Assembly: GCA_016841605.1 (NCBI GenBank)
Contig: JAENYV010000015.1
Coordinates: 1-64,000, forward strand
Source: Dethiobacter alkaliphilus
Lineage (GTDB): Bacteria > Bacillota > Dethiobacteria > DTU022 > UBA8154
Direction: 5' to 3'
DNA: 64,000 bases
The notes beneath the pieces are model-generated. The model saw only the letters and a list, made by a program, of their open reading frames with translations. It made no database searches and was not told the origin of the DNA. Positions 46,448 through 50,615 of this stretch are shown in pieces. Made by a program: the position numbers and the translations under genes. Numbering within the stretch: position 1 is the stretch's first letter; every line of letters begins with the position of its first letter.

Positions 46448-49066
46448 CTAAAATGAGTGTATCTCCTCCCGTTCTTGAAAGAGCAGGCTGCTCTCTCCCC
46501 TGGTAACGACGATGGTATCTCCCGGCTTAAATTTGCTTTGCAGTAATTGCTTGGCCAGAGGAGTTTCCAGTTCTTTCTGGATCGCTCTTTTTAAAGGTCT
46601 GGCTCCATAAGCGGGATCATATCCTTTTTCTGCCAGGTATTCCTCGGCCTCGGGAGTAATTTCTAGATTAAGATGCTGATCCAGCAGACGTTTTACCAGG
46701 CGGGCAGATTGAATCTTAACGATCTGCTGCAGGTGTTTCCTGGTCAGTGGGTGGAAGACGACGATTTCATCTACCCGGTTTAAGAATTCCGGCCTGAAAA
46801 AGGTCCGCATATGGTTTAAAACTCGGCTTTTAGCCCGCTCAAAATCTTCTTCATCTCCCATGCCGTTTTCCATAATAAGGTCGCTACCCAGGTTGGAGGT
46901 CATGATAATGACGGTATTGCGAAAGTCCACTGTTCTCCCCTGGGAATCGGTCAATCTTCCGTCATCAAGGATCTGAAGGAGGGTGTTAAAAACATCCTGG
47001 TGCGCCTTTTCAATCTCGTCAAAAAGAATGACGGAGAAGGGGCGGCGGCGAACCGCGTTGGTCAGCTGGCCACCCTCCTCATAGCCCACATATCCCGGAG
47101 GTGCCCCGATCAGACGTGAAACGGAATGTTTTTCCATATACTCGGACATATCCAGCCGGATATGTGCATTTTCGTCGTCAAAGAGGACAAAGGCAAGGGA
47201 TTTGGCCAGTTCGGTCTTCCCTACCCCCGTTGGTCCCAGGAAGATAAAGGAACCGATGGGCCGGGCAGGATCTTTGATCCCTGAACGGGCCCGCAGAACC
47301 GCTTCACTAACTGCGGAGACAGCCTCTTCCTGCCCAACGACCCTTTCATGAAGACGTTCCTTAAGCTGGAGGATCTTCTGCCGTTCTCCTTCCAGGAGCT
47401 TGCTGATGGGAATACCGGTCCAGCGGCTGACGATCACGGCAATATCTTCTTCATCAACTTCCTCCTTGAGAAGCCTCATACTTTTTTTCTTCCGCAGTTT
47501 TTCTTCCTCCTCCCGGAGCTGCTGCTCCAGACGTGACATCTTGCCGTATTTTAACTCTGCCAGCCGGTTTAAATCATACGCTTGCTCTGCTTTATCCATT
47601 TCCAATTTTGTTTCTTCTAGCTGTTCACGAATAGAGCGCAGCTTGGAAATAAATTCTTTTTCTTCTTCCCAGCGGCTCTTAAGCTCCGCGGCATCTTCTT
47701 TTAAATCAGTCAGTTCTTCTTCAACCTTATCCAGCCGTTTTTTCGAAGCTTCATCGGTCTCTCTCTTTAAGGCTTCCCGTTCGATCTCCAGCTGCAAGAT
47801 ACGTCTTGTCACCTCATCCAGTTCGGAAGGCATGCTGTCGATTTCCGCCCTGATTAAAGCGGCGGCCTCATCAACAAGGTCGATAGCCTTGTCGGGGAGG
47901 AAACGATCGGAAATATATCTCTGACTGAGGGTTACGGCGGCAACCAGGGCAGAGTCCTTGATGCGGACGCCATGGTGAACTTCGTAGCGCTCTTTCAGCC
48001 CGCGCAGAATGGAAATGGATTCCGGTATGCCCGGTTCCTTGACGATAACCGGCTGAAAGCGGCGTTCCAGAGCGGCATCTTTTTCAATGTATTTGCGAAA
48101 CTCTGCCAGTGTCGTTGCCCCAATACAGTGCAGTTCACCCCTGGCCAGCATTGGTTTGAGAAGGTTGCCGGCATCCATCGCTCCTTCTGCAGCCCCGGCT
48201 CCGACCACGGTATGAAGTTCATCAATAAAGAGTATGATCTCTCCCCCGGAATCCTGGATCTCTTTAAGGACTGCTTTCAGTCTTTCTTCAAATTCCCCCC
48301 TGTACTTGGCGCCTGCCACCAGGGAACCCATATCGAGAGCAAAAATTCGCCTGTTTTTCAGACCCTCCGGGACGTCATTTTTGGCAATGCGCTGGGCCAG
48401 ACCTTCAGCTACCGCGGTTTTCCCCACGCCGGGCTCACCGATTAAAACAGGATTATTTTTTGTGCGCCGGGAGAGGACCTGAACTACCCGGCGAATTTCT
48501 TCATCCCGTCCGATAACCGGGTCCAGTTTGCCTATGGAGGCCATTTCCGTCAGATCCCTGCCGTATCTGGCCAGAGCTTCATAGGTTCCTTCCGGGTCCG
48601 GTCCGGTTACGCGCTGGTGTCCGCGGATGGACTGAAGGGCCTGCAAGAAACGGTCTCTGTCCAAGCCTCCCTGTTTTAAAAGGCGTTGGCCTTCTCCCCG
48701 GTCGCTCAGCAGAAGAGAAAGAAGCAGATGCTCAATTCCGATGTACTCATCTTTAAAAGATAATGCTTCTTTTTTGGCGTCTTCCAGAACTCTGGCCAGG
48801 CGGGGGCTCAGATAGATCTGTTCAGTCGTTCCTTCTCCGGCATAAACTTTCGGTTGTCTGGAGAGATAAGACTGGAGATTGTTTTTTAATGCCTCCGTAT
48901 CGCAGCCTGCCCGGGATAAAATTCGGGAGCCCAGACCTTCCTCCTGTTCCAGAATAGCAAGGAGCAGATGTTCGCTATCGATCTGCTGATGGTGAAACCG
49001 GGCGGCCATACTTTGTGCCGCGGCAATGGCTTCACGAGCTTTATTGGTAAAACGGTTTAGTTCCAT
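46448..49066 (-). CDS. clpB: ATP-dependent chaperone ClpB
   Basis: An 872-residue Hsp100 disaggregase. The Clp N domain ([15 protein letters not shown]), AAA+ module 1 (Walker [15 protein letters not shown], Walker [11 protein letters not shown]), the coiled-coil M domain (about residues 405-525, rich in Glu, Lys and Arg) and AAA+ module 2 ([25 protein letters not shown]) appear in order. It rescues aggregated proteins with DnaK. ATG 49066 matches family N-termini, but the only good SD is 32 nt upstream, beyond a 7-bp hairpin. No CIRCE element is visible. An RHH gene and a TnpA-like gene lie upstream on the same strand. Confidence 0.95.
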
Positions 49067-49105
49067 GATACGGCTCGGCTTTTTTGCGCCGAGCTTCACC
49101 TCCTT
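49066..49105 (-). promoter_or_regulatory. Hairpin between the clpB SD and start codon
   Basis: On the minus strand AAGGAGG (49105-49099) is followed by the stem GCTCGGC (49094-49088) / GCCGAGC (49079-49073) with an A-rich 8-nt loop, then CGTATC and ATG. Linear SD-ATG distance is 32 nt; folding out the 22-nt hairpin reduces it to about 10 nt. Confidence 0.55.
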
Positions 49106-49147: not shown

Positions 49148-49540
49148 TTAAAAAGACAAATCATCCAGGAACTGTTGAAGTATCTCCGCGTCCAGGATAT
49201 CACCCGTGCTGACCAGGTAACCTTTTTTCCAGAGAGAGCCCCGGCGGCCGTAAAAAGTCCGCATTTCCGGAAATTGTTGAAAAAGATGCACAGCAGAAAT
49301 GCTTTTCAGCGTCCGAATAATATCTGCCGGGGCGACGGAAGGATCAACGGAAAGAAAAATATGAATAAAAGCATTGTTTACCTCCAGAGAGTGAATCTCA
49401 TAGCGGTACTTTGAGCAAAGAGTAAGCAAAATCTCTTTCAGCGAATCTCCGGCTGTTCCGTAAAAATTTCCGGCTTTGGGCTTGGGGCACCAGACAAGAT
49501 GATATTTAACCAAATAGCGGTAGTAGTCGTTTCTCATCAT
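49148..49540 (-). CDS. TnpA-like (IS200/Y1 family) protein lacking HUH
   Basis: A 130-residue protein related to IS200/IS605 single-strand transposases. Homology blocks are YHLVWCPKPKAGNF (residues 11-24), the LKEILLTLC helix, the core strand where the usual HVH/HUH metal site should be, RTLKSISAVHLFQQFPEM, and the KKGYLVSTGD segment that carries the catalytic tyrosine in the family. At the HUH site the sequence is NAFIHIF, so the first His is replaced and metal-dependent cleavage is unlikely. No IS200 end hairpins or TnpB gene are seen. It starts at ATG 49540 directly after the stop of the RHH gene, and its stop is 81 bp before the clpB ATG. It may be a decaying or domesticated transposase. 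Confidence 0.75.
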   Translation of the reverse strand: MMRNDYYRYLVKYHLVWCPKPKAGNFYGTAGDSLKEILLTLCSKYRYEIHSLEVNNAFIHIFLSVDPSVAPADIIRTLKSISAVHLFQQFPEMRTFYGRRGSLWKKGYLVSTGDILDAEILQQFLDDLSF

Positions 49541-49699
49541 TTATTCTTCTTCAAAACGATATTTTTCTTTAATAGCTCTGCGGATGAGATCAAGGTAGGT
49601 CAGCGTTTTTTCTTCTTCTACGGAATAGATCCTGGCCAGGTTTTCCAGCTCGGTTTTCCAGGCTTGTGGTAAAGAAATATTGATTTGCACATTTTTCAT
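49541..49699 (-). CDS. Small ribbon-helix-helix protein (52 aa)
   Basis: A 52-residue protein (ATG 49699, TAA 49543-49541). The N-terminal strand KNVQINISLP is followed by two helices (QAWKTELENLARIY, LTYLDLIRRAIKEKY), the CopG/MetJ ribbon-helix-helix pattern for dimeric DNA binding. AAGGTGG lies 8 nt before the ATG and a TTGCCA-17-TAGAAT promoter about 35 bp upstream. Its stop abuts the ATG of the TnpA-like gene, so the pair is translationally coupled. It could autoregulate this promoter and so affect clpB; that is inference. Confidence 0.7.
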   Translation of the reverse strand: MKNVQINISLPQAWKTELENLARIYSVEEEKTLTYLDLIRRAIKEKYRFEEE

Positions 49700-49736
49700 T
49701 CAAAGAACCACCTTTTCCTCTTGTCTCTGCATAGAT

Positions 49737-49765
49737 ATTCTATCATAATATATAATCTATGGCAA
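49737..49765 (-). promoter_or_regulatory. Sigma-A promoter of the RHH/TnpA-like/clpB unit
   Basis: On the minus strand TTGCCA (49765-49760) and TAGAAT (49742-49737) with a 17-bp spacer. It is the only convincing promoter upstream of clpB on this strand. Confidence 0.6.
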
Positions 49766-49856
49766 GACAATATTTTGCTGTCTATTAATTCCGGAGAGGT
49801 AATGATTCTTTGAACGTCGAAATCATTGCAGAGGGAGTTAAGGAGGCGAAAGCGAA

Positions 49857-50615
49857 ATGAAGGTTTTTTTTGATGAAAAGTTTTTACAGATCTATGCCGG
49901 TGACCCCGCAGCAGTACCCGGGCGTCTGGAGTACGCTTTCTCTTTGCTGAAAGAAAAATATTCCCTGGTTGACCCTGTGCCTTGCAGCCGGGAGGATGTT
50001 CTCCTGGTCCATGCCCCCTACCATCTGGAATATATCGGCAGGGATGAGAGCGTTTATCCTATGGCCGTCCTGGCCGCAGGCGCAACTATCGGAGCTGCGG
50101 AATCGGCCCTGAACGGTGAAGCGGCTTTTGCCCTTTGCAGGCCTCCCGGGCATCATGCCGGCCCGGATTCCTGTTGGGGTTTTTGCTATTTTAATAATGT
50201 AGCCATTGCTGTACGTAAGCTATTGGTCGCAGAAAAAGTCAAAAAAGTTTTAATCGTTGATTTTGATCTCCATTATGGTGACGGGACAGCAAATACATTT
50301 CATGGAGACCCGTCTGTATCATATTATCACGTCAAGGGGAGCAACCCCCGGGTTTTTTTTGATAACCTGAAGGAGTATCTGCAGAGCGGAAGTGCAGAGC
50401 TGGTTGCAGTCTCCGCAGGTTTTGACCGCCACAGCGAGGACTGGGGAGGGTATCTCTCCACAACGGACTACCGGGAGACGGGAAAAATACTGGGCTCTTT
50501 TGCCAAAGATACTTGCCGGGGACGTATTTTTGCCGCGCTGGAAGGAGGTTACAACCCTCATTCCATGGGCGAGGCGATCGCTGCTTTTCTGGCAGGCCTG
50601 GAAGACGGCCTGTAG
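49857..50615 (+). CDS. Histone-deacetylase-like amidohydrolase
   Basis: A 252-residue zinc hydrolase of the HDAC/AcuC/acetylpolyamine amidohydrolase superfamily. Zinc and catalytic residues are visible in RPPGHHAG (near 94-101), DFDLHYGDGTANTF (near 140) and SAGFDRHSED (near 183). Bacterial members deacetylate acetylpolyamines or acetylated proteins; the substrate is not evident. It is shorter than AcuC (about 380 residues). AAGGAGG precedes the ATG by 9-10 nt. A REP-like hairpin separates it from topB. Confidence 0.87.
   Translation: MKVFFDEKFLQIYAGDPAAVPGRLEYAFSLLKEKYSLVDPVPCSREDVLLVHAPYHLEYIGRDESVYPMAVLAAGATIGAAESALNGEAAFALCRPPGHHAGPDSCWGFCYFNNVAIAVRKLLVAEKVKKVLIVDFDLHYGDGTANTFHGDPSVSYYHVKGSNPRVFFDNLKEYLQSGSAELVAVSAGFDRHSEDWGGYLSTTDYRETGKILGSFAKDTCRGRIFAALEGGYNPHSMGEAIAAFLAGLEDGL

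Follow-up and report, generated by a model that had tools for sequence, protein, structure and literature searches.

A ribbon-helix-helix-like gene and a catalytically dead TnpA-like gene upstream of clpB in Dethiobacter alkaliphilus: a probable domesticated remnant of an IS605-type element

Results and discussion

In the 64,000-nt stretch of Dethiobacter alkaliphilus DNA analysed here (the window; contig JAENYV010000015.1 of assembly GCA_016841605.1, positions 1 to 64,000), a gene for a ribbon-helix-helix (RHH)-like protein and a gene for a catalytically dead relative of the IS200/IS605 transposase TnpA lie directly 5' of the chaperone gene clpB. The two genes, referred to as the module, are conserved together with strict linkage to clpB, are under purifying selection, have lost transposase catalysis, and share ancestry and a promoter motif with a mobile element. 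Domestication of the pair, proposed from an earlier sequence-only reading of the window, is borne out: the module occupies one conserved locus, is inherited nearly vertically, is under purifying selection, has lost catalysis throughout the clade, and has a mobile ancestor with the same RHH gene. Domestication with loss of catalysis is very highly probable. The best explanation as a whole is that a domesticated RHH gene and TnpA remnant control an operon with clpB, to which a probability of roughly 0.6 is assigned. The three genes are as follows.

49541-49699, (-) strand: RHH-like protein gene, 52 amino acids (aa), MKNVQINISLPQAWKTELENLARIYSVEEEKTLTYLDLIRRAIKEKYRFEEE; assessed by profile matches, an AlphaFold2 (AF2) model, conservation and the ratio of nonsynonymous to synonymous substitution rates (dN/dS)
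49148-49540, (-) strand: IS200/IS605 TnpA-like gene, 130 aa, catalytically dead (F58-I-H60, Tyr replaced by F124); assessed by Pfam and NCBIfam profiles, AF2 and Protein Data Bank (PDB) fold comparison, alignment with intact insertion sequence (IS) relatives, and dN/dS
46448-49066, (-) strand: clpB, with its ATG at 49066, third gene of the putative operon

Conservation of the gene pair and its linkage to clpB

Re-reading of the window confirms the open reading frame sizes, the shared strand and the stop-to-start coupling described earlier: the RHH stop codon abuts the TnpA-like start codon with zero gap (TAA followed directly by ATG), and the TnpA-like gene ends 81 bp before the clpB ATG. Further copies were sought in 60 related genomes, then in the class by an RHH profile, and then in all GTDB contigs. 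The genome of the window was read as stretches over about 0.35 Mb outside the window and was covered in the remainder by pattern or model searches.

The order RHH, TnpA-like, clpB is found in all nine loci, which comprise eight genomes of the same family (G000, G001, G002, G004, G006, G014, G018 and G022) and one contig, L022, with one copy of the module per module-bearing genome. Both reading frames are uninterrupted at each of the nine. The linkage to clpB, the conservation of which had been named as a check, is thus strict. L022 (JAHKLX010000031.1) is a module-bearing contig in a metagenome-assembled genome (MAG) of Candidatus Micrarchaeota. Its ClpB groups with the window genus; it is a mis-binned bacterial contig, and is counted with the bacterial family because its ClpB places it there.

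In the protein tree the nine loci lie on one side of a branch with support of 94/94, just under the starred level, beside the mobile elements described below. Within genera the groupings of the TnpA-like proteins largely mirror those of ClpB, as vertical inheritance would give.

Fold and lost catalysis of the TnpA-like protein

The 130-aa protein is a Y1_Tnp protein (Pfam E 4e-24; NCBIfam transpos_IS200 E 9e-29) and in PHROGs matches transposase families only. Its AF2 model has a predicted local distance difference test (pLDDT) score of 89, the top PDB fold match is the IS200 TnpA 2f4f (E 8e-11), and the best matches are IS200/IS605 transposases, so that the retention of the TnpA fold stands as first read. 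The Y1_Tnp profile and fold of an active transposase are therefore present, while its two-histidine HUH motif and its Y---Q are absent.

Alignment with intact relatives places F58-I-H60 at the HUH position, with the first His lost and the second retained. The HUH had been described as replaced by a non-His sequence; it is indeed broken, but the replacement is not complete, as H60 is still there. Among relatives the first HUH residue is always F or Y and the second H or Y, and the first His is missing in 9/9 loci. The tyrosine segment had been taken to be kept, which does not hold: the position of the nucleophilic Tyr is F124 in the window protein, and the Gln at +4 is replaced by L128. The catalytic Tyr is missing in eight of the nine loci, surviving in G004 only, and the +4 Gln is absent. 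An intact HUH is confined to the mobile relatives and has not been restored in any close homologue of the clpB-linked clade.

The window genome encodes Y1_Tnp proteins in six other frames, 155-344 aa long, on contigs C28, C13, C22, C8, C17 and C33 (L117-L122). They are mostly longer than IS200 TnpA and are possibly similar to REP-associated tyrosine transposases (RAYTs; REP, repetitive extragenic palindromic).

Purifying selection on both genes

The dN/dS test that had been called for indicates purifying selection on both genes. Synonymous sites are saturated in many pairs; where the ratio is computable, the TnpA-like protein has values of 0.05-0.19 and RHH values of 0.02-0.11. In a neutral simulation of a 73%-identical copy, the frame stays open in only about 2% of cases, and an amino acid identity of 49% is expected, against 74% observed. 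The persistence by chance of a functionless dead IS copy, with which the sporadic occurrence in the family would agree, is hardly credible, because purifying selection is strong in three or more genus-level lineages, across distances at which synonymous sites are saturated, and because locus and promoter motif are conserved.

The two genes differ in the degree of conservation. In RHH, 34 of the 52 columns are invariant in eight relatives, and the mean column identity is about 87%, compared with 60% in the TnpA-like protein. This difference might be taken to mean that RHH alone is selected, as a repressor of the operon, and that the TnpA-like frame is kept, for example, for translational coupling, or is slowly decaying. 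Such an explanation is unlikely, considering the low dN/dS of the TnpA-like protein and its 29 columns that are invariant across genera, which include VAPAD..R.LKS and YGS.W.K.

Mobile relatives and origin

IS605-type elements with the gene order RHH-TnpA-TnpB, in which RHH overlaps TnpA, are found in the Halanaerobiales (Halonatronum, Natroniella and Halanaerobacter; three-gene elements L026, L028, L029, L032 and L110). Their RHH is about 75% identical to that of the module. The mobile L028, L029 and L032 have an intact HUH and Tyr; in L026, from Halonatronum, the HUH position reads YIH and the TnpB frame is split. The ends of these RHH-IS elements are hairpins around a GCTTGC loop, and truncated copies also occur. 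Since the same RHH stands before a TnpA and a TnpB in the Halanaerobiales, the module is taken to descend from an IS605-type element that carried RHH as an accessory gene. A literature search found no paper that joins IS605, TnpA and ribbon-helix-helix. Remnants of this element type are also seen in MAGs of other Bacillota and of Actinomycetota (L031, L033-L037 and L046).

As had been claimed, the module is without TnpB and without recognisable IS ends. It is a single copy, and the subterminal hairpin ends, TnpB and multiple copies of an IS200/IS605 insertion sequence are thus lacking. When the ends of the IS elements were compared by BLAST with the module loci, no convincing match was found except for a shared promoter segment. 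These features may be accounted for if an IS605-group element whose accessory gene encoded an RHH repressor landed directly 5' of clpB in an ancestor of the Dethiobacter-type family of Bacillota, and then shed TnpB and its ends to leave a two-gene remnant. TnpA lost the residues on which its activity as a nuclease depends, namely the first His of HUH, the catalytic Tyr and the metal-binding Gln, and retained its fold.

The small abutting or overlapping genes, with a promoter that looks autoregulatory, also resemble a toxin-antitoxin-like addiction pair, with RHH as antitoxin and the TnpA-like protein as toxin. This is very improbable, because the RHH protein, at 52 aa, is nearly devoid of a C-terminal tail with which to bind a toxin, and its partner is a dead transposase. 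Moreover, the pair is single-copy at one fixed locus and is not seen on plasmids (zero RHH matches in the plasmid collection), and PADLOC gave zero matches for either protein. There were likewise zero RHH matches in PHROGs and zero matches in Rfam.

The promoter, the putative operator and the operon

A single good promoter, 5' of RHH, was found for the pair, in agreement with the earlier proposal of one shared promoter. Its elements are as follows.

49737-49765, (-) strand: operon promoter TTGCCA-17-TAGAAT with extended -10; -35 at 49760-49765, -10 at 49737-49742
49737-49752, (-) strand: putative RHH operator TATATTATGATAGAAT, consensus TCTAYTATGRTAGAAT, from the motif contrast among clpB loci
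49730-49761, no strand: 7-bp perfect inverted repeat CATAGAT-18 nt-ATCTATG, overlapping both -35 and -10, read from the sequence
49720-49770: promoter segment that includes the CTAYTATRRTAG region

The 16-bp motif TCTAYTATGRTAGAAT is present with at most two mismatches in all eight module-bearing clpB loci compared, and it was not found in any of eight module-free clpB loci with up to three mismatches allowed. In the rest of the genome there is no further site with fewer than three mismatches, and sites with three mismatches occur at the control level. A TCTAYTATGR-like sequence in the spacer between -35 and -10 is common to the domesticated and most of the IS copies, as is the position of the promoter. 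The CATAGAT/ATCTATG repeat is imperfect in several relatives.

Between the pair and clpB, the scan of the window sequence found neither a promoter-like nor a terminator-like site, and no convincing CtsR or CIRCE heat-shock operators were found 5' of clpB. In G004 the gap between the TnpA-like gene and clpB is only 27 nt, and the Shine-Dalgarno (SD) sequence of clpB contains the stop codon of the TnpA-like gene. The shared motif, the lack of an internal promoter or terminator and the overlap in G004 together point to an RHH-autoregulated operon that includes clpB. RHH would have kept the promoter and operator of the mobile element and, by binding to the promoter motif, would autoregulate a transcript with clpB as its third gene; judged from sequence features, such autoregulation is somewhat probable. 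Of the proposed relation to clpB, the linkage is strict, and control through the shared promoter is plausible, if indirect, from the motif contrast, the lack of a second promoter and the G004 overlap. The dead TnpA is best read as a putative nucleic-acid-binding partner, the dimer of which may still bind structured single-stranded nucleic acid or pair with RHH and so tune the operon.

Several observations weigh against an RHH-regulated clpB operon. The RHH_1 match of the window protein in Pfam (E 0.059) is below the cut-off, although it is better for an IS relative (E 0.0024), and the AF2 monomer is mediocre, with helices at 12-28 and 35-47, a pLDDT of 71 and a ribbon of low confidence. A profile of the 52-aa protein matches the RHH protein ORF56 weakly (E 0.013) and needs a 6-residue insertion, and the fold search against PDB gave no informative match. 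From the weak RHH_1 and ORF56 matches and the two-helix model, the RHH identity assigned earlier is moderately supported, and the protein is called RHH-like with moderate confidence. In G018 the gap before clpB is 287 nt, which could fit a separate promoter. The contrast in the operator motif is tied to the presence of the module and is not independent evidence, because the promoter travels with the module. Finally, 15 of the 23 family genomes searched, several of which are incomplete, lack the module, and it is therefore dispensable. Sporadic occurrence with further decay in relatives was the pattern that the sequence-only reading held to be contrary to domestication. Occurrence is sporadic (8/23), but there is no sign of further decay, the module-free loci being simply without the module.

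The clpB leader hairpin

49073-49105, (-) strand: clpB leader, with SD AAGGAGGTGAA at 49095-49105 and the hairpin GCTCGGC-8 nt-GCCGAGC at 49073-49094, 6 nt before the ATG

In all nine module-bearing loci a hairpin lies exactly between the SD and the clpB ATG, and the SD-ATG spacing is normal once the hairpin is discounted. The 7-bp stem covaries strongly among ten leaders: 98.6% of the cells are paired, six of the seven pairs show double compensatory changes, and none of 500 shuffles reaches the score. MAFFT left the stems unaligned, and these values are from a hand-padded structural alignment, which favours structure. In an alignment-free shuffle test of each leader, p is ≤0.0015 for 10 of 15 leaders.

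Because binding to subterminal hairpins is a property of TnpA proteins, and the dead TnpA retains the predicted fold, it might be a translational regulator that acts on this RNA hairpin at the clpB SD and ATG, exapted from the binding of transposon ends. The same hairpin, however, is found in the module-free relatives G007, G011 and G012. A covariance model also finds leaders of similar SD-hairpin-start layout, in the window genome before trxA, glyA and rpsN (G000:C31:59040-59081, L124; G000:C17:115181-115223, L125; G000:C26:58196-58239, L126) and, in relatives, before rpmA, rplY and a gene resembling that of phosphomannomutase (gene names were assigned from the encoded proteins; further leader loci L140, L143, L147 and L156). 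In addition, the stem and loop are without the GCTTGC loop of the RHH-IS ends. A general translation device is therefore likelier than a TnpA target, and the clpB hairpin is probably a lineage-wide, hairpin-bridged device for translation initiation; the translational regulator is a decidedly slim prospect, and the hairpin was rejected as a private TnpA target or a relic of an IS end. An SD, then a 7-9 bp hairpin, then a start codon is a recurring leader layout.

A role with REP-like hairpins, also suggested earlier, was rejected: no REP-like array was found around the locus, REPs not having been searched genome-wide, and the sole conserved hairpin is the one shared with the module-free relatives, trxA, glyA and rpsN.

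Comparison with known systems

The module protein resembles the IS200/IS605 TnpA proteins (Y1_Tnp; ISHp608, ISDra2) in fold, size and family profile scores, and those of its direct homologues in which the catalytic residues are intact are accompanied by the RHH of the module. It differs from them in the loss of the first HUH His, the Tyr and the Gln, the lack of TnpB and recognisable IS ends, and its single copy fixed before clpB.

Two other parallels may be drawn. TldR proteins are transcription factors and nuclease-dead derivatives of TnpB; they are RNA-guided, whereas the module consists of a relative of the transposase TnpA and a predicted DNA-binding RHH. RAYT/TnpAREP proteins are, like the module, domesticated Y1 transposases that are vertically inherited and immobile (PMC6006769, PMC8266576), but RAYTs occur with REP arrays and have kept both HUH and Tyr, whereas the module is without catalysis, has an RHH gene and has no REP array nearby. 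The module is thus different from both.

RHH factors from mobile elements (CopG/Arc/MetJ type; ORF56), the co-option of which is discussed in PMC8987985, share with the module a small, putatively autoregulating RHH-like protein and an inverted-repeat motif over the promoter; that of the module is linked to an IS605 TnpA, and the ORF56 match is weak.

The domesticated Y1 transposases described so far, the RAYTs, retain their catalytic residues, and a survey of the Y1 superfamily excluded sequences without the core motifs as probably non-functional (PMC6006769). The module shows that strong purifying selection can act on such proteins. In addition, it brings to light a kind of IS605-type element that has RHH as an accessory gene, and supplies a specific case, open to experiment, of the capture of a chaperone gene by the regulators of a transposon. 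It is conceivable, if doubtful, that the pair is a dedicated ClpB regulator, with RHH on the promoter and the dead IS605 transposase as a hairpin-specific RNA or single-stranded DNA switch on the clpB message; if so, it would be a TnpA counterpart of TldR.

Neighbouring genes

In most relatives a divergent Cas6-like gene (PF10040, E 2e-11 for the L008 copy) adjoins clpB or the module (L005-L009, L055 and L061). In the window genus its place is taken by a histone-deacetylase-like gene (49857-50615). In the module-free G003, G012 and G007 the Cas6-like gene lies directly beside clpB, i.e. the site is unoccupied.
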